Assembly (NCBI GenBank): GCA_003577275.1
Contig: QEVO01000001.1
Location: forward strand, 372,001-436,000
Reading direction: 5' to 3'
DNA length: 64,000 nt
DNA from: Pseudomonadota bacterium
GTDB lineage: Bacteria > Pseudomonadota > Alphaproteobacteria > Sphingomonadales > Govanellaceae
Shown here: one piece after another, positions 2,051-19,858 of the stretch
Position numbering within the stretch: position 1 is the stretch's first letter
Layout of the letters: each line of letters opens with the position of its first letter
Program-made: the position numbers and the translations under genes
The notes under the pieces: generated by a model
Told to the model about the DNA's origin: nothing
The model's input: only the letters and a program-made list of their open reading frames with translations
Databases searched by the model: none

Positions 2051-2625
2051 AAATACTTCAAGGCGACGAAGCCGCCGATCAGCAAAGCAAATAACAGCAC
2101 GGTGAGCAAGCCCAGCCGCCGTTCGATGAATTGGCGCATGGGCGGGCCGAAATACTTCAGCAACGCCGCCATGAGAAAGAAGATGCCGCCCCGCGACAAC
2201 AGGCTGGCGATAAAAAAGGTCATGAGATTCAAAGAGGTAACACCGCTCGCGATGGTGATGACCTTGTACGGGAAGGGGGTCGCGCCGAAGAAGGCGACGA
2301 TCCAGCCGCCCCATTCGTTGTAGCTCTCCTTAAAACGGGCGAACTCGGCCTCGAAGCCGTAAAGACGGATCATCGGTTCGCCGAGGAGATCGAACAGGAA
2401 ATAGCCGATGGCGTAGCCGGCAAAGCCGCCGGCCACCGACGCCGCCGTGCATACCCCGGCGATCAGCCAGGCCCGGCCGGGGGCGGCCAGCACCATGGGG
2501 ATGAGCAGGAAATGCGGCGGCACCGGGAATAGCGAGCTTTCGATGAAGGCGATGGCCGCCAGCCAGCCCAAGGCATGGGGATGGGCGGCCAGCGCCAGCG
2601 TCTTGTCGTATAAGCGGCGCAGCAT
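2047..2625 (-). CDS. YqaA/DedA-like (VTT domain) membrane protein
   Basis: This predicted protein has 192 aa. The start at 2625 (MLRRLYDKTL) is chosen because CAAGG precedes it and the family normally begins there; an upstream ATG would add 39 residues of unlikely sequence. It has several transmembrane segments and the SNARE-associated/VTT-domain signature: IESSLFPVPPHFLLIP, a glycine-rich GGFAGYAIGYFLFD and FFGATPFPYKVITIASG. DedA/YqaA proteins are inner-membrane proteins connected with lipid scramblase or carrier-lipid transport; the exact substrate here is unknown. Its stop overlaps the dsbB start by four bases, so both are probably co-transcribed. Confidence 0.85.
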   Translation of the reverse strand: MLRRLYDKTLALAAHPHALGWLAAIAFIESSLFPVPPHFLLIPMVLAAPGRAWLIAGVCTAASVAGGFAGYAIGYFLFDLLGEPMIRLYGFEAEFARFKESYNEWGGWIVAFFGATPFPYKVITIASGVTSLNLMTFFIASLLSRGGIFFLMAALLKYFGPPMRQFIERRLGLLTVLLFALLIGGFVALKYL

Positions 2626-2787
2626 GGCGCGACCTTGTTCCCCCATCATCCGGTTGGCTGGGGCAAGGTATCGACGACCGCCGCCGCGGTCAACGGCATA
2701 GCCGCACTGGGCTGTTGACGGCAAAGTCGCCATCGCTATCATGCGCGGGTCTTCCGGGGGCCTGACTCGCTCATGCCCCCGTCCCCG

Positions 2788-2874
2788 GCCCGGGTGGCGG
2801 AACTGGTAGACGCGCCGGACTCAAAATCCGGTGATAGCGATATCGTGTGGGTTCGAGTCCCACCCCGGGCACCA
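2788..2874 (+). tRNA. tRNA-Leu (anticodon CAA)
   Basis: An 87-nt class II tRNA. The acceptor arm GCCCGGG (2788-2794) pairs with CCCGGGC (2864-2870), followed by discriminator A and an encoded CCA. The anticodon stem CCGGA/TCCGG encloses the loop CTCAAAA, giving anticodon CAA. There is a long variable arm before the GTTCGAGTCC T-loop, as expected for leucine tRNAs. Confidence 0.96.
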
Positions 2875-2899
2875 CCTTGCCGCTTTTCTGGAAGCTCTT

Positions 2900-3523
2900 T
2901 TACGGCCGCACGCCGATGACGGCCAAAAATTCCCGCCGGGTGGCGGGGTTGTCGCGAAACGCCCCGGTCATGCGGCTCGTCACCATGGTCACGCCGGGCT
3001 TGTGTACGCCGCGGGTGGTCATGCATTGGTGGGTGGCCTCGATGACCACGGCGACGCCCAAGGGCTCTAACACCTCGGAAATACAGTCGGCGATCTGGGC
3101 GGTCATTTTTTCCTGCACTTGCAGGCGCTTGGCGAAAGCTTCCACGACCCTGGCCAGCTTGGAGATGCCGACCACGCGGTTCGTCGGCAGGTAGCCGACA
3201 TGGGCCTTGCCGATAATCGGGGCCAAGTGGTGTTCGCAGTGGCTTTCAAAATCGATGTCCTTCAAAAGCACCATCTCGTCATAGCCCTCTACCTCCTCGA
3301 AGGTGCGCTTCAGGTAGGCGGTGGGGTCCATGACGTAGCCGCCGAACCACTCCTCAAAGGCGCGCGCCACCCGGCGCGGCGTATCTTGCAGCCCCTCCCG
3401 CGTCGGGTCGTCGCCGGCCCATCGCAGCAGCGTGCGCACCGCTTCTTCCGCTTCTTCGCGGGCAGGGCGGAGTGGCGCGTCGGCGGCGGGACGGGCGAAC
3501 GTGGCGATCTGGGACGGGCTCAT
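2900..3523 (-). CDS. folE: GTP cyclohydrolase I FolE
   Basis: A 207-aa type I GTP cyclohydrolase, which converts GTP to 7,8-dihydroneopterin triphosphate in the first step of folate (and tetrahydrobiopterin/queuosine-type) synthesis. Zinc ligands are visible: C96 and H98/H99 in SHCEHHLAP, and C167 in HQCMTTRG. The GISKLARVV and MTTRGV blocks are family hallmarks. The N-terminal 25 residues are low-complexity and variable, as usual. It is a single gene on the minus strand between tRNA-Leu and a cytochrome gene reading the other way. The metal-dependent FolE1 motifs are intact, so this is not the FolE2 type. Confidence 0.96.
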
Positions 3524-3710
3524 CGGGCAATCTCATTTTCTGTGCAAATTATTATGATATTTTGAAGTTTAGGATTTTTCGGGCAGTCTGGCTATGTCCT
3601 ACGGCTGGCGCGGGCAAAAAGATCATCGCCGACGGTCTATTCTGGGCTTGCCCAAGGATAAACGCTTTTGCTACTCATTAGCAACAAGATCAACTCGTCA
3701 AGGAAATCTC

Positions 3711-4454
3711 ATGCGGATATGGATTGCCGCCGTTCTTGCTACCGGTTTGGCCTCGGCGTCGGCCATTGCCCAGTCCCACCTCAGCGATCCGGAAGGCGAG
3801 GTCGATGACGCCGGCCATGACTACGTCGGCGGCCGTCCCGACCATCCCAGCGAAGCCTGGCTGGTGGTGCGCGGCGGCAAGCTTTACGCCGACTGGATGG
3901 AAGCGCTGATGAAAAAAGGCCCGGAACAATCGCATCCGGCCTATCCTGCGGGCGGCGACCAATCCGGCGCGGCAACCTGGCGCTGCACCGCCTGCCATGG
4001 CTGGGATTATGGCACCCTGGCCGGGAAAGGGCCGTGGACGGAGGCGGACGTTACCGTCATCTTGCGCGATGACCGCCATCGCTACAGCGAGGACATGCTG
4101 CCGGCGGCGGAGATGGCGGCGTTGACCCTGTTTCTTAACAAGGGAGCGGCCGACACCGCTCCTTTCATCGATCGCGCCGCCGGTAAATCCAAAGGCGCGG
4201 CGGCGCAAGGCCAGCCCTATTACGAGACCATCTGCGCCGCCTGTCACGGCTATGACGGCCGCACGCTGGGCTTCTGGGATGGCGCCACCCTAACCTATCT
4301 TGGCACCGAGGCGGCGCAAGACCCGGCCAAGGTGTTCCACATGGCCCGCTTTGGCCATCCCGGCGAGCCCATGGTGGCGCTCTACCTGTTGCCGCCGGCG
4401 ACGGTGGCTGACATTCTGGCCTTCGTCCAGACGTTGCCCACGGGCGACCGCTAA
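3711..4454 (+). CDS. periplasmic diheme cytochrome c
   Basis: A 247-aa secreted protein starting at 3711 (AAGGAA upstream); the longer open frame starting at 3594 lacks a sensible N-terminus. It has a signal peptide (residues 1-21, ending ASAIAQS) and two covalent heme c motifs, CTACH at 92-96 and CAACH at 175-179. Candidate axial methionines lie in SEDML (about 129) and EPMVALYLLP (about 221). It is therefore a two-domain class I-like cytochrome c acting in the periplasm. Its electron partner is not evident. The downstream HIT gene starts 11 bases after its stop, so the two may form a small operon. Confidence 0.85.
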   Translation: MRIWIAAVLATGLASASAIAQSHLSDPEGEVDDAGHDYVGGRPDHPSEAWLVVRGGKLYADWMEALMKKGPEQSHPAYPAGGDQSGAATWRCTACHGWDYGTLAGKGPWTEADVTVILRDDRHRYSEDMLPAAEMAALTLFLNKGAADTAPFIDRAAGKSKGAAAQGQPYYETICAACHGYDGRTLGFWDGATLTYLGTEAAQDPAKVFHMARFGHPGEPMVALYLLPPATVADILAFVQTLPTGDR

Positions 4455-4987: not shown

Positions 4988-6079
4988 ATGCGGAGCTACC
5001 GGATTGGCGGGGTGATCGGCGGCATGGCCGCCGTTGTCGGTTTGGCCGCGCCAGAGGGTCAGGCGGCAACGCTGACGGCTATTGCCGAAGCGCCGGTGGG
5101 GGCCATGGAGCTTGCCGTCGGCCATGCCCGACTGCATCAGACGCAAAACAAAGACCTTGGTCCCGACGTGGGTTTTGACCACGCGATGAGCGTCAATCAC
5201 CACTGGGAAAGCGGCGTGGCGTACGACTGGGAATACCAGTTTACCGGCAGCGTCATCGTCTTCAAGCTCGGCGACACCACGGTAACGACGCCGGCCTCGC
5301 TGGCTGACGCGGCGACGGGGTTTGCCGGCAGTCTGCGCAATTTAAGATTCGCCAGCGACGAGGCTTACGAGCATCATGGCGACGATGATGACGACGATGG
5401 CCATGGCCAGGATAACGGCCATAAAGGCAACGACAAAGACAAAGACAAGGATAAGGACAAGGATAAGGACAAGGACAAGGACAAGGACAAGGACAAGAAC
5501 AACGACGACAGCAAGGACAAGGATAAAGACAAGGATAAAAACAAAAATAAGCGAGACGATGACCACGAAGACAAAGACAAAGATAAAAATAAAGACAAAG
5601 ACAAAGACAAAGACAAAGACAAAGACAAAGACAAAGATAAAAATAAGAGCGGTCACGACGACGATGATGACAAGAGCAAATCAGTCTTCGCCATCCCCAG
5701 CGATCTGGCGCTGTTCTTCTCCATCGACGAAATCAACGGCCAGTCAACCGGCCTTAGCGGATTTACGTTGCTGTTAGGGGACAGTTTGGATTTTGCCTAC
5801 AATGCAGATCTGGGCGACGCCTTCACGTTGAAGGGCACCGCCAAGGCCAGCTGGTCGGGCAAATTGAAACACAGCCCCAATCAGAATTTCGCGCTGTCCA
5901 TCGGCGCCTTTACCTACGATGATCCGACGCAGCAGGCGGGCGATATTGTCCCGCCGGACAATGACGCCGATGACGAGGGCCGCAATGCGCGCGCCGCGCC
6001 GTCGCCCTCCGCGCTTGCCCTACTGTTGACGGCCGGCCCGATGCTGTGGGCGGCATCGCGCCGCCGCCGTGGCGGATAA
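4988..6079 (+). CDS. secreted Lys-Asp repeat protein with PEP-CTERM-like C-terminus
   Basis: A 363-aa predicted surface protein. The start at 4988 is supported by GGAG seven bases upstream. Layout: signal peptide about 1-27 (ends EGQAA); a beta-rich domain to about 125; an Asp/His run (GDDDDDDGHG); a long alternating Lys-Asp tract at about 148-220; another Asp run; a second beta-rich domain at 232-320; and a C-terminal sorting-like tail with APSPSALALLLTAGPM, a Trp-containing hydrophobic helix and a basic RRRRGG end. The tail resembles PEP-CTERM signals cleaved by exosortase, though the PEP core is replaced by PSPS. The charged tract should be disordered and may bind cations. Function is unknown. 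Confidence 0.72.
   Translation: MRSYRIGGVIGGMAAVVGLAAPEGQAATLTAIAEAPVGAMELAVGHARLHQTQNKDLGPDVGFDHAMSVNHHWESGVAYDWEYQFTGSVIVFKLGDTTVTTPASLADAATGFAGSLRNLRFASDEAYEHHGDDDDDDGHGQDNGHKGNDKDKDKDKDKDKDKDKDKDKDKNNDDSKDKDKDKDKNKNKRDDDHEDKDKDKNKDKDKDKDKDKDKDKDKNKSGHDDDDDKSKSVFAIPSDLALFFSIDEINGQSTGLSGFTLLLGDSLDFAYNADLGDAFTLKGTAKASWSGKLKHSPNQNFALSIGAFTYDDPTQQAGDIVPPDNDADDEGRNARAAPSPSALALLLTAGPMLWAASRRRRGG
5429..5647 (+). repeat. hexanucleotide (GAYAAR) tandem repeat encoding Lys-Asp
   Basis: The stretch is built almost only of GACAAG, GATAAG, GACAAA and GATAAA units, with short interruptions (AACAACGACGACAGC; the KRDDDHED block). It is purine-rich on the plus strand and far richer in A than its surroundings. 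Because the unit is six bases, gain or loss of units keeps the reading frame, so the protein tract can vary in length. Both complementary-strand frames are also open through it, which explains the spurious antisense frames there. Confidence 0.95.
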
Positions 6080-6093
6080 ATTCCCAAAGGCTG

Positions 6094-7020
6094 TTACATC
6101 CGCCAATTGAGCATCACCGAGACGATGTGCTCCTGGTAGTCAACACTCGCCAGATTGGAGATGGCGTTAATGAATTCGTATTGCGGCTTTGCGCTGATGT
6201 TGCCGAAGAGCGGCGCCTCAAGGCTGGCGCGGAAGTGATGGCGTTTGTCCAGGCGTTCTTCGCCGATCGAAGGCGTGAGGTTGGAGAAATTTTTCACGGA
6301 GTAACGGTAGTCGGCGCGAAAAACCAGCGTCATATCGTCCGCCGCGATCGGCGCTTTGATGCCGACATCGAAGTAATGCCCCCAATAGGTAAATTCCGCT
6401 CCGTCGGCTTTCTCGCGCAATAACTTGTAGCCGGCATGAACATTGCTTTTCGGCGCAAAGGAATAATAGCCGGTAACGCCGACGTTATGCTGACGGGAAT
6501 CGCGCGGCGCAAGATCGTCATAGTCGCGCCACTGATATTCATAAGACGCACGGACGTAAACATCCTTGCCGACGCTGCCGCCCAGGCCGGGGCGTACGCT
6601 GTGGATGTCCAGAAAACCATCGCCGCCCAACAGGATGTGGCTGAAGCGGTAGCCGATGCTGGCGTCGAGGCCGCCGAATTTCGTCGCGCCGGTCAGCGAC
6701 AGTCCGTGAATTTGCAAATCAAAGTCGCTCAAATCCTCGTGCAGGCTTTGAAAGAAATCATAGCCGATTTCCAGCGAGCTATTGCCGTTCTGGATCGGCT
6801 TGAAGCTCAAGGCGGCTTCCAGGAGCGCCGCGACATCGCCCTCGTCGGTCGCCAGATCCTGGGCATCTACCGTAATGTTGCTGTCGTATTCGCCGCCTAT
6901 GCCGACGCCGATATCAAAGTTCTTATCATCCGCCGCGGCAGCGCTTTGCAAAGGTGCGCCCAGGAGCGTTGCGATAAGCAGCGTATAGGATACGGCGGTA
7001 GCTTGATCGAGCCGTTTCAT
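6094..7020 (-). CDS. outer-membrane beta-barrel protein
   Basis: A 308-aa protein with a signal peptide (cleavage near SAAAA at 25-29) and then a run of alternating amphipathic beta strands with aromatic girdle residues (LEIGYDFFQS, VRASYEYQWRDYD, LVFRADYRYSVKNF). It ends in an aromatic strand VSVMLNWRM, typical of proteins inserted by the BAM complex. The mature N-terminus FDIGVGIGGEYDSNI resembles the barrel part of DUF560/surface-modifier-like proteins, and similar barrels are found next to PEP-CTERM genes. It converges on the Lys-Asp repeat gene with only 14 bases between the stops. The transported or anchored partner is unknown. Confidence 0.8.
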   Translation of the reverse strand: MKRLDQATAVSYTLLIATLLGAPLQSAAAADDKNFDIGVGIGGEYDSNITVDAQDLATDEGDVAALLEAALSFKPIQNGNSSLEIGYDFFQSLHEDLSDFDLQIHGLSLTGATKFGGLDASIGYRFSHILLGGDGFLDIHSVRPGLGGSVGKDVYVRASYEYQWRDYDDLAPRDSRQHNVGVTGYYSFAPKSNVHAGYKLLREKADGAEFTYWGHYFDVGIKAPIAADDMTLVFRADYRYSVKNFSNLTPSIGEERLDKRHHFRASLEAPLFGNISAKPQYEFINAISNLASVDYQEHIVSVMLNWRM

Positions 7021-7530
7021 GACTGGTCCCCATCCAATGGTTTCAAGTTTTATGGCCGCATCGCATGGGAGGTGTTATTGGCTGGACGCGAAAAAGGGAG
7101 ACCGCACCGTCGATTAAGAAGATGCAGTCATCTTCGCGAGCGCCGCCCTCCATGGCGGGTTGCCCGGCTAAAACTCGGCGTATCCGTGGATGCCCAGTTC
7201 CCTGTACCCGTTACCCAGAGCCGCAGGGTCGTGGCGAAAGATGGTGAAAGTAGGGCGGAAGATGGTCAGCAAAGGGTAAATAAAAGTCGTATTTTTCCAT
7301 AAATATGAATGAGTTAAGATACCTGATCCGGAACCGCCCGGCAGGGGCTGCTAGCGATTCCTCTTGACAAAACAACGACCCTCACGTCACCTGTCGGGGC
7401 TGAGCGCGTTCTGGATTTCGACCCCTGACTGCCGCCGGTGTCAGGTAGCTGACAATGGCCGATCTCTCAGGTTTCGACCGGTAACTTACGCTTCGCACCT
7501 TGATCGACTACTCTATGCGGAGGTACTGGT
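7021..7530. other. intergenic region: leaders of the barrel gene and the cold-shock gene
   Basis: About 510 bases without a convincing gene. On the minus strand it is the 5' region of the barrel gene and contains a perfect 7-bp hairpin at 7118-7135 (loop CAGT) and a CCGCC/GGCGG hairpin at 7143-7158. On the plus strand it leads to the cold-shock gene, with a TTGACA hexamer at 7364-7369 but no good -10 box, leaving a long leader of the kind often seen in front of csp genes. The ribosome-binding site GGAGG lies at 7519-7523. I do not recognise a known riboswitch family. Confidence 0.5.
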
Positions 7531-7788
7531 ATGCCTGAGGGCACCGTCAAATGGTATAACCCCACCAAGGGGTTCGGTTTCATCGTTCCCGCCAGCGGCG
7601 GGAAGGATGTGTTTGTTCACATCAGCGCCGTCGAGCAGGCGGGCTTAAGCGGCCTTAATGAAGGCGACAAGGTCTCGTTCGAATTAACGACGGATCGCCG
7701 GGATCGGGTTTCTGCCGGCGAACTGAAGGTGCTCGAACGGGCGCCGGCGCAACAGCGGCCGCGCCGCAGCTTCGATTCGCGTTCTTAA
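7531..7788 (+). CDS. cold-shock domain protein (CspA family)
   Basis: An 85-aa protein with one cold-shock domain. The RNA-binding motifs RNP1 (KGFGFIVP) and RNP2 (DVFVHISAV) are present, and the opening [16 protein letters not shown] is canonical. The last 15 residues ([13 protein letters not shown]) form a basic, disordered tail. CspA proteins bind single-stranded RNA/DNA and melt secondary structure. It is monocistronic: preceded by a long leader and followed 41 bases later by a strong intrinsic terminator. GGAGG lies seven bases before the ATG. Confidence 0.96.
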
Positions 7789-7829
7789 AACTCAACGCGC
7801 GCGTCCGAGCAGAATAAAGATGAATGTCG

Positions 7830-7860
7830 CGGGGTCCGGCAACGGACCCCGTGATTTTTT
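7830..7860 (+). terminator. intrinsic terminator after the cold-shock gene
   Basis: A perfect 9-bp GC-rich stem, CGGGGTCCG (7830-7838) with CGGACCCCG (7843-7851), closes a GCAA tetraloop and is followed by TGATTTTTT. It ends cold-shock transcription before the convergent minus-strand gene at 7874. Confidence 0.92.
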
Positions 7861-7873
7861 AGGCCCACGATGT

Positions 7874-9148
7874 TCATTGAATAATGACCACCGGGGCAAA
7901 GCCGCCGCCCGGCGTGCGAAAATTGGTGGTCTGCCCTTGATAGAGCCTGGCCGCGGCCAGGAGCGGCGCGCCGGCATAGGTGTAAAGCCGCACGTCCATC
8001 TTCTGCATGTGTTCGTCGTTGCCGATCCGCACTCGGCGCTGGCTGGGGGCGGCGAAAGCCTGGGCGATGTAGCCGCCGCGGCGAATATCCTCGAAGACGC
8101 CGCGCGTCAACTTGTCGCCGCGATAGACCGCCTTGCCGGCATAGCCGGCGGCCGGCTTGAAGAATAAGCCCTTGCGGGCCGCCCATAAGGCGTCGGCATT
8201 CTCTGCGGTCACCATTTCGGCGCGCGGGATGGCGGCAAGCCAGGCGCGGATATCGGGCGCTACGCCCAATGCCGTCAAGCGATCAGGGTTGGAGAGCAGG
8301 GTTAGATTGCGCTTGTCGGCCAACAGCGCATGATGGCGCGGGCCAGGCGTCACCACCACGCCGCCCGCCAGATACGCGGCGCGCAGCGCGGCCGCCGGCG
8401 CGCTCGCCAGACTAAAGTCCACCAGGCGGTTATAAACCAGATCGATGGCCAGATCGCCCAGCATCAGACGGCCGTCTTGAAAGCCAAGCTCGGCCGGATC
8501 GGCGATCACCGTCTTGACGCCGCGGCGGGTGAAGAAGGCCTGGGCCAGCAGGAATTCGGGGTAAAGGTATTGCTCGGCGGGATTGTCGTCGACGATGGCG
8601 ATGACCGCCGGTATGCCGTGGCGGCCCTGGAGCCGCCATTCGGCCTCGAACATGCGCCACACATTGTCTTCGAACTGTGTCAAGAGATCGTTTGCGGCCA
8701 GCGCCTGCACCCTATCGCAACAGGCGGTCTGGGCTCTGGCCAGAAGGGCATTGAGAAAGGCCCCGCCGGCGTTGGTGTTGATCTCAATGAGCTGCGGGCC
8801 GGTGGCGGTGAGATGGAAATCATAGCCCATGAAGACGCCGCGGCTGGCGACCTCGTGGCGCGCGATGGCCGGCGCCCAGGCCAGGACCGCCGCCTGATAA
8901 GCGGGCTCCAGCGCCACCGTTTCGATGGCCGCGGCTATGGCCGCCATGGCGTCAAAATCCGCTTTGCCGAGGAAGATCGGCGCATGGGAGAAAAGGTGGG
9001 CGCGCTGCGCCGTCAGCGCCTGCCATGGAACGCTTTCGGCAGCGGCGGCCTCGACCGCCGACCATACCCGAGCGGGATCAACGGCGATGCAGGAGCAATC
9101 GCGGTTAAGCTGCTCCTCAAGTTTTAGCGACGGCTGCGGGTTCAACAT
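7874..9148 (-). CDS. ATP-grasp-like protein (possibly circularly permuted), function unknown
   Basis: A 424-aa cytoplasmic protein. Stretches resembling ATP-grasp ligases are visible: LIEINTNAGGAFLNA (about 130-145), GIPAVIAIVDDNP followed by YPEFLLAQAFFTRRGVKTV, a DLVYNRLVDF block, VTPGPRHHALLADKRNL, and FFKPAAGYAGKAVYRGDKL near residue 340. The order recalls circularly permuted ATP-grasp proteins that make amide bonds, but this is inference from motif shape only. It is divergent from an ArsR-type regulator whose start is 96 bases away, so that regulator may control it. No signal peptide or membrane segment is seen. Confidence 0.6.
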   Translation of the reverse strand: MLNPQPSLKLEEQLNRDCSCIAVDPARVWSAVEAAAAESVPWQALTAQRAHLFSHAPIFLGKADFDAMAAIAAAIETVALEPAYQAAVLAWAPAIARHEVASRGVFMGYDFHLTATGPQLIEINTNAGGAFLNALLARAQTACCDRVQALAANDLLTQFEDNVWRMFEAEWRLQGRHGIPAVIAIVDDNPAEQYLYPEFLLAQAFFTRRGVKTVIADPAELGFQDGRLMLGDLAIDLVYNRLVDFSLASAPAAALRAAYLAGGVVVTPGPRHHALLADKRNLTLLSNPDRLTALGVAPDIRAWLAAIPRAEMVTAENADALWAARKGLFFKPAAGYAGKAVYRGDKLTRGVFEDIRRGGYIAQAFAAPSQRRVRIGNDEHMQKMDVRLYTYAGAPLLAAARLYQGQTTNFRTPGGGFAPVVIIQ

Positions 9149-12695: not shown

Positions 12696-12995
12696 ATGGC
12701 CAAAGCAAAACCAGCGGTGCAAAAGTTTCGGTCCTTTGACGGGGCCGACTATCTGAAAAATTCGGCCATGATGCTGGACTATCTGGACGTGGCCGCCCAA
12801 GACCCAAACCCCGATGTGTTCCTGATGGCGCTGGCCGACGTTGCCAAGGCGCGGGGCATGGCGGAAATTGCCAAGGCAACCGGGCTTGGCCGGGAAAGCC
12901 TCTATAAGGCGCTCTCGCCCGGCGCCAAACCGCGATACGAAACCATTGCCAAAGTGGTGCAGGCTTTAGGCGGCAAACTGACCATCGCTGCTTAA
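12696..12995 (+). CDS. HigA-like addiction-module antidote, module 1
   Basis: A 99-aa helix-turn-helix antitoxin of the family that pairs with the RelE-like killer proteins. It has an N-terminal toxin-binding DGADYLKNSAMMLDYLDVA segment, then an HTH MAEIAKATGLGRESLYKALS followed by YETIAKVVQALGGKLTIAA. Intact in length and motif. Its toxin partner immediately upstream is truncated, so this antitoxin is now an orphan, possibly kept as a regulator or as an anti-addiction protein against related toxins. Confidence 0.9.
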   Translation: MAKAKPAVQKFRSFDGADYLKNSAMMLDYLDVAAQDPNPDVFLMALADVAKARGMAEIAKATGLGRESLYKALSPGAKPRYETIAKVVQALGGKLTIAA

Positions 12996-13097: not shown

Positions 13098-13382
13098 TTA
13101 GGCGGCGGCGTGAATGGTGATGCCCAGCGCCTTGGTAACTTTCATGATGGTGCTGAATTCCGGCCTGCCATCCGGCGACAGCGCCTTGTAAAGATTCTCC
13201 CGGGATAGCCCGGTTTCCCGCGCAATCTTCGTCATGCCCTTGGCGCGGGCAATATCGCCCAGGGCGGCGGCGATCAGCGCCGGATCGCCATCTTCAAAAG
13301 CGGCGGTGAGGTAAGCGGCCATATCGCGCTTGGATTTCAGATAATCCGCTGCGTCCCAGCGTTGGGTTTTAACCTTGGCCAT
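13098..13382 (-). CDS. HigA-like addiction-module antidote, module 2
   Basis: A 94-aa antitoxin, paralogous to the one at 12696-12995: AADYLKSKRDMAAYLTAAFED, then the HTH MTKIARETGLSRENLYKALS and a FSTIMKVTKALGITIHAAA tail. GGAG precedes the start. It lies 11 bases after the end of the interrupted toxin reading frame, the toxin-then-antitoxin order typical of HigBA-type modules. The gene is complete. Confidence 0.9.
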   Translation of the reverse strand: MAKVKTQRWDAADYLKSKRDMAAYLTAAFEDGDPALIAAALGDIARAKGMTKIARETGLSRENLYKALSPDGRPEFSTIMKVTKALGITIHAAA

Positions 13383-13393
13383 GGCTTTTTCTC

Positions 13394-13684
13394 CTATACA
13401 TCCTGGGCCAGTTCCTTTGCTCTGGCGATGTCCTTGGCTTGCGTCCGCTTATCGCCCCCAGCCAGCAGCACAATGAGCTTTTGCCCCTACTGCACGAAAT
13501 ACACCCGGTAGCCGGGGCCATAGTCGATCCGCAATTCCGAAACGCCTTCACCCACCGGGCGCACATCTCCCGGATTGCCCAAGGACAAGCGGCGAATCCG
13601 CAAATTGATCCGGGCGCGGGCAGTGAAATCACGCAAGCCCTTAAGCCATTTATGAAATACATCTGTCTGGCGGATTTCAATCAC
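13394..13684 (-). pseudogene. RelE/HigB-like toxin of module 2, interrupted by an amber codon
   Basis: Read from the ATG at 13684 the frame gives MIEIRQTDVFHKWLKGLRDF, then GNPGDVRPVGEGVSELRIDY and GPGYRVYFVQ, and then TAG. Beyond the TAG the same frame continues as GQKLIVLLAGGDKRTQAKD to a proper stop at 13394-13396 just before the antitoxin. The full frame is 97 codons, exactly the family length, so a single nonsense change (for example CAG or CGG to TAG) inactivated it. The missing C-terminal third includes conserved core strands, so the 65-residue product is unlikely to be active. Confidence 0.88.
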
Positions 13685-13759: not shown

Positions 13760-13805
13760 TGGCGCGCCCGAAGAGATTCGAACTCCTGACCCCCAGATTC
13801 GTAGT
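13760..13805. repeat. attachment site, left (displaced tRNA-Arg 3' half)
   Basis: Forty-six bases identical to 19782-19827; the match ends in the anticodon loop, where this copy goes on with TAGCC instead of CTGG. The site lies 76 bases upstream of the module 2 toxin start. Confidence 0.93.
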
Positions 13806-13922: not shown

Positions 13923-13964
13923 GGTGATTGCTAGGTGCTTACTAGCGGTCTTCTAGCAATCACC
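13923..13964. repeat. inverted arm-type integrase sites, left end
   Basis: GGTGATTGCTAG (13923-13934) and CTAGCAATCACC (13953-13964) are perfect 12-bp inverted copies, 20 bases before the integrase start. The same 11-mer GTGATTGCTAG occurs twice in tandem at the other end of the element. Confidence 0.75.
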
Positions 13965-13984: not shown

Positions 13985-15265
13985 ATGGCGGTGAAGATAA
14001 CCAAGCGGACGGTGGACGCGGCAAAGCCGGGGGAGCGGGACCGCTTTCTATGGGATGCGGACCCCAAGGGCTTCGGCCTGAAAGTCACCCCAGCGGGGAA
14101 CAAGGTCTATATCCTGCAATACCGCATGGGCGGACGGGAAAGCCCTGTGAGGCGCTTCACCATTGGCAAGCATGGCAGCCCCTGGACCCCGGACACGGCA
14201 CGGGATGAAGCCCGGCGACTGCTGGCGGAAGTAGGCAAGGGTGTTGACCCCATGGCTACTAAGCGCCAGCGCCGGGAAGATGCCGTTAACCTGGAATTTG
14301 AACGCTATGCCGCTCAGTTCATTGAACGCTATGCCAAGGTGAATCAAGCCCGGTCATGGACGGAAGCCAAGCGGGTCTTGGACCGTGACCTTATTCCGGC
14401 CTTCAAAGGGCGAACCATTGCTGACCTGACGCGCCGGGACATTGCCCACACCTTGGAGGAAATAGACCGCCGCGCGCCCGCCGTGGCCCGCTTTGCCCAT
14501 GCCACCTTGCGCAAGCTGTTCCGCTGGGCGGTGGGGCGGGAAGATATTTCATCTTCCCCCATGGCCGATATGCCAGCCTTCAAGCCCCTGGCTTCCCGTG
14601 ACCGAGTATTGAGCGACGCTGAATTGCGCGCCGTGTGGCTGGCCTGTGACAAGCTGGACCATCCCTTTGGCCCGTTCGTGCGGCTTCTGGTTGCCACTGG
14701 GCAGCGATTGTCCGAAGTGGCGGAAATGGATTTTTCGGAGGTCGACTTTGACGCGGCGCAGTGGACCATCCCGGCGGCACGGGCGAAGAACGGATTGGCG
14801 CACACCGTCCCCTTGAACAACGCCGCCCTGAGCCTATTGGAAGCCTTGGGAGCGCATACCCGCAAACGTGGCCTAATCTTCACCACCACCGGCAAGACGC
14901 CCATTAGCGGCTTTTCCAAGGCCAAGAAACGGCTGGACCGCCTGGCGCTGGAAATCCTGCAACAAGACGCGGTTGAGAACGGCGGCAAGGCCGATGACGG
15001 GCACCTTGCCCCCTGGCGCTATCATGACCTGCGCCGCACCCTGGCCACCGGCCTGCAACGGCTGGGAACCCGTCTGGAAGTGACCGAGGCGGTTCTAAAT
15101 CATATATCGGGCAGCCGGGCGGGCATTGTGGGGGTCTACCAGCGCCACAACTGGGCCGATGAAAAGCGCGCCGCCCTGGCTGCCTGGGATGCCCACCTGA
15201 GCGCCATCATCGATGGCAAAGGCAAGGGGGCGAACGTCATCGCCCTGGCGGATAGACGGGGGTAA
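13985..15265 (+). CDS. int: tyrosine-type site-specific integrase
   Basis: A 426-aa integrase of the P4-like class. It has an N-terminal DUF4102-like arm-binding domain (residues 1-90, with GFGLKVTPAGNKVYILQYR), a SAM-like core-binding domain (about 105-185), and a catalytic domain with R241 (TGQRLSEV), H347xxR350 (YHDLRRTL), H373 (NHISG) and nucleophile Y385 (GVYQRH). All catalytic residues are present, so the element could still move. The gene sits next to the left att copy, facing into the element. It recombines the tRNA-Arg 3' half, the usual target for this class. Confidence 0.95.
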   Translation: MAVKITKRTVDAAKPGERDRFLWDADPKGFGLKVTPAGNKVYILQYRMGGRESPVRRFTIGKHGSPWTPDTARDEARRLLAEVGKGVDPMATKRQRREDAVNLEFERYAAQFIERYAKVNQARSWTEAKRVLDRDLIPAFKGRTIADLTRRDIAHTLEEIDRRAPAVARFAHATLRKLFRWAVGREDISSSPMADMPAFKPLASRDRVLSDAELRAVWLACDKLDHPFGPFVRLLVATGQRLSEVAEMDFSEVDFDAAQWTIPAARAKNGLAHTVPLNNAALSLLEALGAHTRKRGLIFTTTGKTPISGFSKAKKRLDRLALEILQQDAVENGGKADDGHLAPWRYHDLRRTLATGLQRLGTRLEVTEAVLNHISGSRAGIVGVYQRHNWADEKRAALAAWDAHLSAIIDGKGKGANVIALADRRG

Positions 15266-15271
15266 GGGCGC

Positions 15272-15619
15272 TTGTCACAACATAGCAAAGATGCTATATG
15301 GAAAGTGGAATGCCTCAATGCTAAGGTAGAGGCGGAAATCCTGGCCCTTCCGGCGGATATGCAAGCCCGGCTGTGGCGCATTGCCGAATTGTTGGAAGTA
15401 TGGGGGCCGCACAAGGTGGGGATGCCCTATACCCGGCACCTGGAAGGCAGGATTTGGGAAATCCGGCTGTCGGGTAAGGCGGGCATTTCCCGCGTGATGT
15501 ACGCGGCCTTGATGGACCGCAAGCTGATTTTGTTGCGGGCTTTCGTGAAGAAAACCCAAAAGACGCCCCGGCAGGAAATCGACCTAGCCTTGCGGCGATT
15601 GAAGGAGAGTGAATCGTGA
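15272..15619 (+). CDS. RelE/ParE-superfamily (Gp49-like) toxin of the island
   Basis: A 115-aa protein of the phage-derived Gp49-like toxin family: WKVECLNAKVEAEILALPAD, MPYTRHLEGRIWEIRLSGKAG, SRVMYAALMDRKLILLRAFV and KKTQKTPRQEIDLALRR. These match mRNA-interferase-like toxins of HigB type. The start is uncertain: a TTG at 15272 is used because the conserved WKV lies before the GTG at 15305. An ATAGC/GCTAT inverted repeat at 15282-15297 overlaps the beginning. It overlaps its antitoxin gene by four bases. Confidence 0.85.
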   Translation: MSQHSKDAIWKVECLNAKVEAEILALPADMQARLWRIAELLEVWGPHKVGMPYTRHLEGRIWEIRLSGKAGISRVMYAALMDRKLILLRAFVKKTQKTPRQEIDLALRRLKESES

Positions 15620-15900
15620 CCGTGCCGTTTTCCAAGCTCAAGAAAGAGATGCTGAAAAACCCAGTGGTGAAAAAAGCCTATGATGATATGGCGGAAGAAT
15701 TTGAAATCGCCGCCGCACTCATTGAGGCGCGCGCCAAGGCGGGATTGAGTCAAGACGAATTGGCAAAACGCATGGGCACCACGCAAAGCGCCATCGCCCG
15801 CATTGAAAGCGGCAAGCATTGGCCGAGCAAGAAAACGCTGGAAGGCTACGCCAAGGCGACCGGCCTGCGGCCCACCATCCGGTTTGTGCGGGCGAGTTAA
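15616..15900 (+). CDS. HigA/XRE-type antitoxin of the island
   Basis: A 94-aa XRE-family HTH protein. An N-terminal toxin-contact segment (LKKEMLKNPVVKKAYDDMAE) is followed by a classic HTH (AGLSQDELAKRMGTTQSAIARIESGK) and a GLRPTIRFV end. The start codon overlaps the toxin stop. Unlike the two chromosomal modules at 12.5-13.7 kb, both partners are intact, so this pair may stabilise the integrated element by post-segregational killing. Confidence 0.92.
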   Translation: MTVPFSKLKKEMLKNPVVKKAYDDMAEEFEIAAALIEARAKAGLSQDELAKRMGTTQSAIARIESGKHWPSKKTLEGYAKATGLRPTIRFVRAS

Positions 15901-16298: not shown

Positions 16299-16405
16299 CC
16301 TCTTAAAGTTGACCTTGGCGCGGCTAGGTTTGGCCGCCGAACATCCCGTCCCGCACGGGACCGCCGCGCCATACCTTTCATGCGGGTAGCCTATGCGGGG
16401 GCGAT

Positions 16406-17653
16406 GTGAAAAAGCTTGACGCACGAAATCGCGGTCTAGTTTGGACCTTCGATGCTTGGCGCATTACCGGAAAATGGATTGCAAGAACCAGTACGCTAGC
16501 TGATCCGTTCCCGTCCCATCATGTTGACACTACATTGGTTGAAATGTTTGGCGGGGACAATCCAGATGCCTATGTGCGGCGGCAAAAAATTGGTGCCCTT
16601 GCGCAACATTTACTCGAGTGTGAATTGCTCACCGGAAACTTGGTAGCAAGTTTCCTTAAGGACGAACAGGCGCGCCCAATTCCGACATGGGCTTGGTCTA
16701 ACCCTCACAGAACGAAATATGCATGGCGTGAGGGGCTACTTCCACTTGATATACGGTTGCCGGATGAATGGCAGCAATGGAATTGCCGCCCTTGCGCATT
16801 AGACCGTAAACAGTTTGGCAACTGGATACGAGAGCAGCTTCCTGCTCTGATAGCGCCGCCAAAAGAAATTCCAGACCTCGCACAGATCGAACAGGAAATG
16901 CCTGTACTCATTAAAACACGGCTACCATCAGATCGGCCATGGATAGAATTGTCAGAGGCATTAACGTGGATAGCTTTTGACATTTCTATAAGCAAAGACA
17001 GACTTGGCCATGCGACCGACGCGGGCGAGCTAGGCCAGTCATCTGAGGTGGTCGAGACTGAACTTAGTAATGCCCTGATTCGCTTGGCTGATTTGGCAGC
17101 CGGTGGAAATATCGGATTGCGTGGTAAGTGGACGGATGGGGATAACTTTGAAGACACGCTCACTGAAGCCATACCCCAGCAACGTTTCCATGATTTCAGG
17201 CGTTACGATATTTTGCGCGATGGCTTGGGTTTTGGAAATGGTTTTAGTCCATCAGACCCATTAGCATTTCTGGACACGTCCCGAGGCCAATATTTTAGCG
17301 TCACGGTAAATCGGGCTGAGCTTCTGAAAGCTTTTCCGTCTCAGTCAAATGCAGCGCTTGAAAGCAGTGATGTGATGCTAAATAACTCTACAATAGAGTT
17401 GGATCAGCCCCAGCCTGACAGCCAAGTAAAAACTGTATCTAAAGTGGCACTAGAGGCCTGGATAAAGAAAACGACAGGGACAGCTTCCGGGGGAAGGCGG
17501 CTAGGGCAAGATGTAGCTTGGAAGTTAGCATGTGAGCATTTCGAGGATGAACACTTAAAAGTGCCAAGAGAGATTTTTAGATCCGCATATCAAAGCGCGG
17601 CCCCTTCACACCTAACAGCGCGTGGAAGGCCAAGAAAAAACTCGCCAAAATAA
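16406..17653 (+). CDS. hypothetical island protein with AT-hook-like C-terminus
   Basis: A 415-aa protein, visibly AT-richer than its neighbours, a sign of recent acquisition. No family recognised. The N-terminal half is globular with many Trp residues (GLVWTFDAWRITGKWIA, PIPTWAWSNPHRTKYAW, PDEWQQWNCRPCAL). The middle contains ELSEALTWIAFDISI and repeated acidic segments. The C-terminal part (about 350-400) looks helical: VALEAWIKKTTGTASGGRRL, then KLACEHFEDEHLKVPREIF. It ends in RGRPRK, an AT-hook core, suggesting DNA binding. A terminator-like hairpin follows directly. Cargo of this kind on small islands is often defensive or regulatory, but nothing here proves that. Confidence 0.65.
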   Translation: MKKLDARNRGLVWTFDAWRITGKWIARTSTLADPFPSHHVDTTLVEMFGGDNPDAYVRRQKIGALAQHLLECELLTGNLVASFLKDEQARPIPTWAWSNPHRTKYAWREGLLPLDIRLPDEWQQWNCRPCALDRKQFGNWIREQLPALIAPPKEIPDLAQIEQEMPVLIKTRLPSDRPWIELSEALTWIAFDISISKDRLGHATDAGELGQSSEVVETELSNALIRLADLAAGGNIGLRGKWTDGDNFEDTLTEAIPQQRFHDFRRYDILRDGLGFGNGFSPSDPLAFLDTSRGQYFSVTVNRAELLKAFPSQSNAALESSDVMLNNSTIELDQPQPDSQVKTVSKVALEAWIKKTTGTASGGRRLGQDVAWKLACEHFEDEHLKVPREIFRSAYQSAAPSHLTARGRPRKNSPK

Positions 17654-17694
17654 TATCGCCGGAATTTTCGGCGGCGCATTTTGCGATATTTTTC
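17652..17694 (+). terminator. nested hairpin terminator after the AT-hook-like gene
   Basis: AATATCGC (17652-17659) pairs with GCGATATT (17683-17690), with an inner CGCCG/CGGCG stem, followed by TTTTT. It overlaps the last codons of the upstream gene. Confidence 0.6.
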
Positions 17695-17771
17695 GGCGTA
17701 TTTTTATGGATGTAGGCTTCTCCTGTCGTCCCAACGTGCCGGGGCGATGATGCAACAGACAGGAGATATTC

Positions 17772-17990
17772 ATGCATCCACCGGACCATCAAAAGCTTCG
17801 CACACCTGAGGCCGCCAAGCGGCTGGGGGTTGCCCCTTCCACCATGGCTAAATGGCGTGTCTATGGCTGTGGGCCAAGTTACGCCGTTTTAGGCGTGCGT
17901 GGCCCCGTCGTCTATGACCCCGCCGACCTTGACGCCTGGGCAGCTTCCAAGAAGCGCACCAGCACCAGTGACGTTGGGAGGGCCGCATGA
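17772..17990 (+). CDS. AlpA/excisionase-like HTH protein
   Basis: A 72-aa MerR-type winged-helix DNA-binding protein: LRTPEAAKRLGVAPSTMAKWRVYG, GPSYAVLGVRGPVVYDPADLDAWAAS. This is the HTH_17/AlpA layout used by excisionases and by small activators of island genes. AGGAG precedes the ATG by seven bases. It opens a run of four genes whose starts overlap the preceding stops, so it is likely the first gene of an early operon. It may control integrase or act in excision. Confidence 0.82.
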   Translation: MHPPDHQKLRTPEAAKRLGVAPSTMAKWRVYGCGPSYAVLGVRGPVVYDPADLDAWAASKKRTSTSDVGRAA

Positions 17991-18181
17991 CACAGAAACG
18001 AAGAAACCCCACCGGGCAGGGTGGGGCTCTCCAAAATATCGAGATGCTGGCAGGCTTCGATGGATTGGAGATTACCCCCAGAAGCCCATTTAATCAAGCC
18101 ATCCGGCACATATCCCGGCGGGCGCGGGTATCCCGTCCCCATGCCAGTGTATTAGCAGAGCTGATGGGGGTGCGGCGATGA
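17987..18181 (+). CDS. small hypothetical island protein
   Basis: A 64-aa protein, basic at the N-terminus (MTQKRRNPTGQGG) and the end (SRRARVSRPHASVLAELMGVRR). Start and stop overlap the neighbouring genes by four bases on each side, which supports translation. The C-terminal VSRPHASVLAELMG looks like a short helix pair. No family recognised. Confidence 0.6.
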   Translation: MTQKRRNPTGQGGALQNIEMLAGFDGLEITPRSPFNQAIRHISRRARVSRPHASVLAELMGVRR

Positions 18182-18480
18182 ACCGGCTTAAGGTTATATT
18201 TGAAATCGGCGATGGCGGGCAAACCCGCCACACCGTCACGGGCCGCGATGCCTGGGCATTGCTGGAACTGCACAGGGTGGGGGAAACCGGCTGCACGCCC
18301 ATTGATAACCCCGGCCCGCGATGGTCCGCTTATGTGTTCAATCTTCGCAAATTGGGCGTGGCCATCGCCACGGTGAACGAATCCCACAAGGGACCATTTC
18401 CCGGCAGCCATGCCCGCTATGTGCTGCAAAGCCCGATCCGCATTGTATCCGTCACCGGCGGGGAAAGGGCAGCGGCATGA
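18178..18480 (+). CDS. hypothetical island protein (possible winged-helix-like domain)
   Basis: A 100-aa protein. The segment TGRDAWALLELHRVGETGCT followed by NPGPRWSAYVFNLRKLGVAI and SHKGPFPGSHARYVLQSPIR resembles the small winged-helix proteins annotated in phages and islands, where a cysteine-containing turn precedes the recognition helix. It is coupled by ATGA overlaps to both neighbours. DNA binding is inferred from this resemblance only. Confidence 0.6.
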   Translation: MNRLKVIFEIGDGGQTRHTVTGRDAWALLELHRVGETGCTPIDNPGPRWSAYVFNLRKLGVAIATVNESHKGPFPGSHARYVLQSPIRIVSVTGGERAAA

Positions 18481-18701
18481 CTATCATTCATGAGCTAAAG
18501 AAACCCGGCGGGGATTTGGTGCGGCTGATGCTGACCGAATACCGGGGCAAGCGCTATGCCGATATCCGGCTTTGGGCGGACAAGGGCAGCGAAGGCCACA
18601 TAGCCACAAAGAAGGGCGTCACCGTGCCCCTGGATAGCCTGGACGGCTTTGCGGAAGCCTTTGCCAAGGCCGCCGCACTTGCCCGTTCTGACGGCTCCTA
18701 A
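18477..18701 (+). CDS. PC4/p15-like transcriptional coactivator family protein
   Basis: A 74-aa protein starting at the ATG overlapping the previous stop; the longer frame from 18321 is an overlap artefact. It has the PC4-like pattern LVRLMLTEYRGKRYADIRLW, then an acidic turn and ATKKGVTVPLDSLDGFAEAF. PC4/YdbC-like domains form dimers that bind single-stranded DNA. It is the last gene of the AlpA-like operon and is followed by an intrinsic terminator. Sitting just before a predicted HUH-type nuclease, an ssDNA-binding role during replication or transfer of the element is plausible. Confidence 0.8.
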   Translation: MTIIHELKKPGGDLVRLMLTEYRGKRYADIRLWADKGSEGHIATKKGVTVPLDSLDGFAEAFAKAAALARSDGS

Positions 18702-18715
18702 TCGGCAATAAATGG

Positions 18716-18746
18716 GGGCGGTGGGAAACCATCGCCCTTCATTTTT
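18716..18746 (+). terminator. intrinsic terminator after the PC4-like gene
   Basis: GGGCGGTGG (18716-18724) pairs with CCATCGCCC (18729-18737) through a GAAA tetraloop, with one G-T pair, followed by TTCATTTTT. It separates the small-gene operon from the HUH-like gene, which therefore needs its own promoter. Confidence 0.82.
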
Positions 18747-18767
18747 CCCCCGAATTAAAAACTTGCG

Positions 18768-19523
18768 ATGACCTTCAAACACGCAAATGCCCAAGGCGTT
18801 GTTTCCAAACGCATTGCCCCGCCTGTACCCCAGTTGGCACAGTGTTTGCAATTATATCACGCGTATATTAGTGACGGCATATCCCCGCCCGCACCACAAG
18901 CCCGACGCATGGCCCGCCAGCGTTTAAGCCGTGACCGTGTAAGCCATTCCCTGAGTGAAAGCCAAGCGCAAAACATAATCGACGCGGCGCATTTTGCGGC
19001 CACCATGGCCAAGCCCTTAAACCGCTTCACCACCATCCATTGGCAGCAAGCGGGCGTCACCACAAACATTCAAGGAGCAACGTTGCGTTTCCTGAAACTG
19101 GCGGCGGACTGGCTACGGCTGCGGGGCGAAACGCTGGCCTATATCTGGGTACGGGAATCCGGCGATGGCAAGGGCGAACACGTCCACATTCTGTTGCATG
19201 TGCCGCCTTATCTGGGGCGCGCCTTTTCATCCCGGCAACGGGGCTGGCTGAAAGCCTGTGGGGCGTCATTCTCCAAAGGGATGATATTCAGCCGTCCCGT
19301 GGGCAGAAGCCTATCCCATGCCTTTGTGGGCATCCGCTATGGCGAACCTTATCAAGACCATCTAGATGCGGCGCTGAACTATGTGCTGAAAAGTACAAGC
19401 CCGCATGCCCATGCCCGCCTTGGCTTGCCAAAACATGAACCCAGCGGGGTCATCATCGGTAAGCGCTGTTCCACTAGTCAGAACATCGGGCGGGCGGCGC
19501 GATTGCCGCGTGTGGTTCCATAA
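18768..19523 (+). CDS. putative HUH-type replication/relaxase-like protein
   Basis: A 251-aa protein. Three features recall rolling-circle Rep and other HUH nucleases in order: a hydrophobic strand before the core (RFTTIHW, 87-92), the metal-binding pair H138-V-H140 in GEHVHILLHVP, and a Tyr-Lys motif Y205-V-L-K208 in AALNYVLKST. The N-terminal 80 residues are basic. The family is not recognised by name and the assignment rests on motif order only; an inactive or otherwise specialised relative is possible. It is the last island gene before tRNA-Arg and may let the excised circle replicate or be mobilised. Confidence 0.6.
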   Translation: MTFKHANAQGVVSKRIAPPVPQLAQCLQLYHAYISDGISPPAPQARRMARQRLSRDRVSHSLSESQAQNIIDAAHFAATMAKPLNRFTTIHWQQAGVTTNIQGATLRFLKLAADWLRLRGETLAYIWVRESGDGKGEHVHILLHVPPYLGRAFSSRQRGWLKACGASFSKGMIFSRPVGRSLSHAFVGIRYGEPYQDHLDAALNYVLKSTSPHAHARLGLPKHEPSGVIIGKRCSTSQNIGRAARLPRVVP

Positions 19524-19577
19524 AATGAATGGCTACTTTTCAATATGTTACATTGCTGTGAACGGCTTAACGAGACC

Positions 19578-19660
19578 ATTACGCATGCGTAATAATCATA
19601 CCAGGTAAAAATGAGGCGCGCGTGCCTGAGGAGGGGCAAGCGCCCACAGTATGCGCGCCT
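19578..19660. repeat. palindromes between the HUH-like gene and the right end
   Basis: ATTACGCATGCGTAAT (19578-19593) is a perfect 16-bp palindrome. Just after it, AGGCGCGC (19614-19621) and GCGCGCCT (19653-19660) form a perfect 8-bp inverted repeat around about 30 bases. Such structures could be a double-strand origin nick site, a terminator for the HUH-like gene or recombination-factor sites. The remainder of 19524-19781 has no gene. Confidence 0.5.
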
Positions 19661-19698
19661 GGGTACAAATGGGGCAAAGAGCCGCGAAACCCATCTCC

Positions 19699-19720
19699 GT
19701 GATTGCTAGGTGATTGCTAG
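19699..19720. repeat. tandem arm-type integrase sites, right end
   Basis: GTGATTGCTAG occurs twice head-to-tail (19699-19709, 19710-19720), 62 bases inside the right att copy. It matches the inverted pair at the left end. Confidence 0.72.
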
Positions 19721-19781
19721 AGCAGATTTTAGATGATTTTGAGGGGATACCAAAAAGGCGAAAATATCTAATAAAATCAAG

Positions 19782-19827
19782 TGGCGCGCCCGAAGAGATT
19801 CGAACTCCTGACCCCCAGATTCGTAGT
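19782..19827. repeat. attachment site, right (inside tRNA-Arg)
   Basis: Forty-six bases identical to 13760-13805, spanning from the tRNA anticodon loop to its CCA end. Confidence 0.93.
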
Positions 19828-19858
19828 CTGGTGCTCTATCCAGCTGAGCTACGGGCGC
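19782..19858 (-). tRNA. tRNA-Arg (anticodon ACG), integration target
   Basis: A 77-nt tRNA on the minus strand from 19858. Acceptor GCGCCCG pairs with CGGGCGC, with discriminator G and encoded CCA at 19782-19784. The anticodon stem CCAGA/TCTGG encloses CTACGAA, giving ACG. The element lies beyond its 3' end and supplies an identical 3' half, so the gene remains functional after integration. Confidence 0.96.

Follow-up and report, generated by a model that had tools for sequence, protein, structure and literature searches.

The window, by which we mean the whole 64,000-nucleotide stretch of DNA that was analysed, contains an island of 6,022 bp bounded by perfect 46-bp direct repeats at a tRNA-Arg gene. 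The gene under study, encoding a putative HUH endonuclease, is the last gene of this island, which comprises the following features:

13760..13805: left att copy (46 bp), duplicating the 3' part of tRNA-Arg; perfect direct repeat with 19782-19827, spacing 6022
13924-13945, and inverted at 13942-13963: further GTGATTGCTAG arms
13985..15265, + strand: tyrosine integrase (Arm-DNA-bind_3 + Phage_integrase; Pfam PF13356, PF22022, PF00589)
15272..15900, + strand: toxin-antitoxin pair, cargo, two ORFs
15272-15619, + strand: Gp49/HigB-like toxin of that pair (PF05973, 3.6e-26)
15616-15900, + strand: HTH_3/HigA-like antitoxin of that pair (PF01381, 1.8e-15)
16317..16386, + strand: int-alpA RNA (Rfam RF02996; 41.4 bits, gathering 35.8)
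16406..17653, + strand: 415-aa protein, cargo, no usable family match
17772..17990, + strand: AlpA/excisionase-like small HTH protein (HTH_17, 2.1e-5; phrog_66 excisionase, 3.4e-7)
18178..18480, + strand: winged-helix protein HTH_91 (PF22324, 9.5e-37)
18471..18701, + strand: PC4-like protein (p15 family, ssDNA-binding fold; PF02229, 4.9e-8)
18716..18737, + strand: hairpin, stem GGGCGGTGG / CCATCGCCC, loop GAAA, then a T-rich stretch
18756..18768, + strand: conserved cis motif TAAAAACTTGCGA, candidate nick/origin site; only genome copy of TWRAAACTTGCGA
18768..19523, + strand: putative HUH endonuclease (E130, H138, H140, Y205, K208, R233; from profiles, model and conservation)
19699..19720, + strand: GTGATTGCTAG repeat arm near the right end
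19782..19827, - strand: right att copy, inside tRNA-Arg(ACG) 19782-19858

The GTGATTGCTAG arms are probable integrase arm sites. The 415-aa protein belongs to no family in Pfam, PHROG or NCBIfam, and an ORF in a locus of the same genus (L126) is possibly related to it. The int-alpA RNA lies downstream of the integrase region and ahead of the AlpA-like gene; with Rfam, it was not found above gathering score in eight relatives or in L126, and L126 keeps an 89.5% DNA match to the stretch 16317-16386. This locus (positions 2061-4371, genome G001) occupies the same tRNA-Arg site, with one att copy, HigBA-like genes that are 93% identical, and the int-alpA stretch. The site is thus not the clean empty one that had been expected in G001; integrase and HUH gene are absent from it, and L126 is either a remnant or a different element. 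Just beyond the left end of the island, translations alone give the impression of further small toxin-antitoxin-like ORFs at 12696-12995, 13098-13382 and 13487-13684.

Reading frame, profile matches and predicted fold

Positions 18768-19523 form a single ORF of 251 residues on the + strand, whose stop lies 259 bp short of the right 46-bp repeat copy, in agreement with its original placement at the end of the island. Translation also puts the two proposed motifs where they had been reported: H138-V-H140 (codons 19179-19181 and 19185-19187 for the histidines) and Y205xxK208 (19380-19382 and 19389-19391). The stretch RFTTIHW spans residues 86-92, and a further HxH is found at residue 213. The conserved cis motif (18756-18768) runs into the ATG, residues 1-57 are poorly conserved and modelled with low confidence, and the start codon is uncertain.

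Taken alone, the motif pair is a weak and only mildly unusual signal. Shuffled proteins, matched in composition only, are expected to carry 0.67 HxH and 0.28 YxxK each, and both motifs occur at such spacing in 4.3% of shuffles (P about 0.04). Since chance produces the combination in about 4% of cases, evidence from the family is needed.

Profile searches offer a first indication of the type of enzyme. Residues 106-157 match PF23343 (REP_ORF2-G2P) with an E-value of 1.3e-5, the 25.8 bits lying below the gathering cut-off of 27.8, and residues 115-143 match PF11726 (YagK/YfjJ) at E 0.0097, with 16.3 bits against a gathering score of 25.8 and thus also below the cut-off. In PHROGs, the protein matches phrog_2969, 'replication initiation protein' (E 0.011). 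Among 16 diverse relatives, 11 match PF23343 at E<=0.1, the best at 5.1e-8. Sequence searches of the PDB with the protein were uninformative.

AlphaFold gave no usable model from the single sequence (pLDDT 38.5). The usable AlphaFold2 model was built from five sequences and has a mean pLDDT of 70.9 and a pTM of 0.67, with core blocks mostly at 83-95. Its predicted order is beta(86-90)-alpha-beta(125-132)-beta(136-143)-alpha-beta(173-177)-alpha(195-206)-beta(229-236). The HUH histidine pair sits on the central strand 136-143, and Y205, followed by K208 as YxxK, on the later helix 195-206. E130, a candidate third metal ligand, is predicted on the strand neighbouring the HUH strand. On this model, the protein has the five-strand HUH fold.

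Structural comparison with Foldseek agrees with this topology, as the best matches are HUH nucleases. Against the PDB, the top matches are the nuclease domains of MVM NS1 and AAV Rep (E 4e-3 and up, probability up to 0.97); the E-values are weak and the TM-scores low, partly because the N-terminus is disordered. Against viral models, the list is headed by replication initiators of microviruses and by an ORF2/G2P protein, with E-values down to 8.8e-7 and a probability of 1.00, although a large share of the highest-ranked entries is unnamed.

Conservation and distribution of the family

Relatives were gathered from the same taxonomic family, from plasmids, from the class (385 genomes) and from the order (399 genomes). 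Judged by the names of relatives, the order appears to be Sphingomonadales. Relatives from the same taxonomic family are 61-63% identical to the window protein. The survey at class level detected the HUH family in 9 of 385 genomes and that at order level in 61 of 399 (about 15%, or ~1 in 7). A profile scan of contigs with a query built from a close alignment recovered four loci, and a single-protein query none. In several copies, including L101 and other loci from the class and order surveys, a frameshift or in-frame stop codon interrupts the gene, and the elements therefore appear to decay in place.

The alignment used for conservation counts holds 68 members, 67 of which reach as far as Y205, K208 and R233. 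E130 is kept in all 68, H138 in 66 and H140 in 65, while Y205, K208 and R233 are each found in 67/67; H144 is kept in 58 members. Ala replaces H138 in L005 and L065, and N or Y replaces H140 in L006, L008 and L068. The family further displays a conserved C-terminal G-[KR]-R motif, with R233 invariant. It is this conservation of H138, H140, Y205, K208, E130 and R233 that leads us to judge the motif pair real. The HUH-nuclease reading given originally is thus upheld by predicted fold, family conservation and Pfam/PHROG matches alike, and we regard membership of the HUH nuclease family as very likely. Neither of the two outcomes named beforehand as speaking against it, a non-HUH predicted fold or a family with unconserved histidines and Y205, was observed.

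The order of the motifs is informative as to the kind of HUH enzyme. In the window protein the HUH pair comes first and is followed by one tyrosine, in YxxK, which is the opposite of canonical MOB relaxases. As judged from this sequence feature, the protein would be a Rep-type enzyme and not a canonical relaxase. Altogether, the evidence supports an HUH endonuclease with one domain and one tyrosine, of the Rep (REP_ORF2/G2P-like) type, and a widespread, unannotated family of such enzymes tied to small integrative elements.

An integrase and a cis site linked to the gene

The HUH gene is preceded in 38 loci by a tyrosine integrase gene on the same strand, at a distance of 0.4-4.8 kb and usually 1-2 kb. 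Between the two, the relatives encode HTH_17/AlpA-type (29 proteins), HTH_91 (13) and PC4-like (9) proteins, and the elements carry variable cargo, in one case a type IIG restriction-methylase. Distances among HUH proteins and among integrases are correlated, with a Mantel r of 0.585 against a permutation maximum of 0.327. This co-variation indicates that the HUH gene belongs to the core of the element and is not a passenger; together with the integrase and the excisionase-like HTH gene, it makes up the core that a family of small integrative elements has in common. The nearest well-delimited relative, L117, measures 4.7 kb and sits at tRNA-Lys, compared with 6.0 kb and tRNA-Arg for the window element, both being bounded by 46-bp repeats. 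Among the other 37 loci, L117 alone has att repeats as clear as those of the window, so the sizes of the remaining elements are estimates. No capsid, terminase, primase or conjugation families were detected in the element proteins scanned.

A second conserved component lies just 5' of the HUH gene, where a hairpin accompanies a motif with the family consensus TTGAAACTTG. The most enriched k-mer upstream of HUH genes, TTGAAACTT, occurs in 29 of the 68 upstream windows, each 400 nt long, compared with 1 match in controls five times as long. AAACTTG is found upstream of HUH genes 25 times in sense and once in antisense orientation. A position weight matrix detects a strong site in 35/64 non-redundant upstream regions, with a near-invariant AAACTT core among the selected sites. 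A stable hairpin usually comes immediately before the strong site, on its 5' side (mean z -2.5 across 37 loci, 27 of them below -1.5); in the window, the 70 nt leading up to the motif have a z of -2.97. The hairpin has no match in Rfam. In the most distant family members, the cis site is weak or absent.

The site is closely confined to the HUH gene. Elsewhere in 119 kb of elements, strong copies number only 3 in sense and 4 in antisense orientation, two of the latter being the second half of a palindrome. The 13-mer TWRAAACTTGCGA occurs once per HUH gene, with one copy each in the genome of the window (G000) and G002 and two each in G225 and G721, and nowhere away from HUH genes in these four genomes searched whole. 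In six loci (L064, L069, L070, L072, L075 and L077), the motif is one arm of a palindrome that is nearly perfect, TTGAAACTTCACCG-N10-12-CGGTGAAGTTTCAA, and in G499, G612 and G775 this palindromic version is present beside HUH genes only. Initiators of the pC194 and phiX174 type nick at CTTG^A. By analogy, the resemblance of this nick site to AACTTG in the cis motif may serve as a lead.

Proposed function and closest known systems

We think it likely that the HUH protein is a nickase acting at the hairpin-TTGAAACTTG site, and reasonably likely that, as a Rep-type enzyme, it starts rolling-circle processing of the excised element there. Int and Xis would excise the element as a circle, upon which the HUH enzyme would bind the hairpin-TTGAAACTTG site and nick within or beside AAACTTG, remaining attached via Y205, with the metal held by E130, H138 and H140. 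The free 3' end would then drive rolling-circle displacement, possibly with the PC4-like protein coating the displaced strand. Multicopy circles, concatemers or ssDNA would result, raising the copy number, and these products could feed transfer by a helper, either through phage packaging or through a resident conjugation system. In this manner, the HUH gene might account for spread without conjugation genes, as originally suggested. Only tentatively do we extend this to a wider picture of undescribed alphaproteobacterial integrative elements of ~4-6 kb, whose sole replication or transfer gene would be a stand-alone HUH nickase at a hairpin-TTGAAACTTG origin and which helper phages or conjugation systems would move as rolling-circle concatemers or ssDNA.

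Whether such a nickase would serve replication or mobilisation is a finer distinction, in which the balance tips slightly toward a replication initiator rather than a relaxase, because the motif order is Rep-type. As a relaxase, the protein would make the island an integrative mobilizable element, with the hairpin-TTGAAACTTG site as oriT and a resident conjugation system receiving the nicked strand. An inverted repeat immediately 5' of a conserved core is the layout of an oriT, and the cis site shares it. Plasmids that carry a member of the family (a pSM103mini-type of 4.3 kb, pRPA of 8.4 kb, pRm1132f, pCP157_12, pP18_i and others) point in the same direction, as the small ones encode a RepA of their own and in most cases lack a recognised relaxase; of 17, 13 are typed non-mobilizable. 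With a separate replication initiator encoded there, the HUH member is not the main Rep of these plasmids. Moreover, ICEBs1 can use the Rep-type HUH enzymes of pC194 and pUB110 as relaxases (PMC5714925), so the two functions are not exclusive. Against a relaxase stand the Rep-like motif order, as canonical MOB relaxases place the tyrosine first, the relaxases already present on some plasmids (MOBV on pRm1132f, TraA on L005), and the accessory Mob genes, none of which were recognised in the chromosomal elements. Overall, we find the relaxase reading possible but doubtful.

Two of these plasmids deserve a further remark. According to work cited in PMC10194956, pRm1132f replicates by rolling circle. 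On L005, a Sphingomonas plasmid, the HUH relative (6001-6531), which has the H138 to Ala replacement, lies directly upstream of a gene (6790-8505) whose annotation is a reverse transcriptase of the retron Ec67 type.

A minimalist, PICMI-like phage satellite, in which the HUH protein would stand in for the primase and produce concatemers that a helper phage packages, appears unlikely. The core is of the same kind (integrase, excisionase and one replication gene, with capsid and conjugation genes not recognised), and PICMI, with int, AlpA and prim, replicates in a rolling-circle-like manner and is then packaged in concatemer form (PMC10803314). However, neither the window protein nor the DNA of 17660-19760 has a match in phage records or viral contigs, and no link to a phage, a cos site or particles was found. 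HUH relatives were likewise not found in these two collections, which leaves a phage origin unsupported here. Concerning the use of the enzyme, the satellite reading is compatible with Rep-type rolling-circle processing.

It is quite improbable that the protein is a DNA-binding regulator, with the palindromic or hairpin TTGAAACTTG site as operator or promoter region of its own gene. The motif stands where the gene begins and takes palindromic form in one subgroup, and a terminator-like T-rich tract follows several hairpins; the site could be an operator or a terminator/promoter. Binding alone, however, needs none of the catalytic residues, whereas nearly every complete member retains the whole set, Y205 and K208 among them. 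A promoter reading of the motif was rejected, as no -10 box follows it at promoter spacing. An IS200/IS605-like or RAYT transposase inserted beside an integrase would share the superfamily and the single tyrosine, but can be set aside given the position and co-variation of the HUH gene with the integrase, the lack of a match to the Y1_Tnp profile in Pfam for the protein or its relatives, and the lack of dispersed palindromic ends, the motif or palindrome lying beside HUH genes only in every genome where it was found.

For small islands that have an integrase and neither conjugation nor capsid genes, the HUH family provides a putative missing DNA-processing gene, and the copying or movement of such tiny elements is now open to testing. 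The gene-linked cis site is the new and directly testable part of the finding: conserved and unique in the genome, it can be used directly as the substrate of a nicking assay. Where a small plasmid is typed non-mobilizable, its HUH member is a candidate unrecognised nickase; family copies on plasmids are annotated as hypothetical or lack annotation in every record seen.

Among known families, the HUH region aligns with PF23343 REP_ORF2-G2P (an inovirus-type and other phage replication-associated protein) and PF11726 ('inovirus Gp2 family'). The Gp2 type is known to reside in islands that carry an integrase (PMC6174562). The window protein differs from both families in scoring below their gathering thresholds, and the C-terminal G-[KR]-R motif of its family is a candidate further difference. 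With microvirus initiators and the parvovirus and AAV Rep domains, the model suggests a common fold and a common E/HxH/Y arrangement, the latter being that of the AAV Rep active site. Identity to these proteins is 9-22%, and the window protein is, in contrast, a stand-alone domain without helicase, encoded in a bacterial integrative element.

At the level of the whole element, PICMI satellites (PMC10803314) are also small, with int, AlpA and one replication gene and no capsid-remodelling genes, and they establish that such a set suffices for a phage-packaged element. PICMI is found in Vibrionaceae at the fis site and has a primase, whereas the window element sits at tRNA-Arg and has the HUH gene and no primase. 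The strand-biased circularizing integrative elements (SE; PMC9345347) are similarly small and non-conjugative, with tyrosine recombinases. According to that paper, they encode no HUH endonuclease, whereas the window element has a predicted one.
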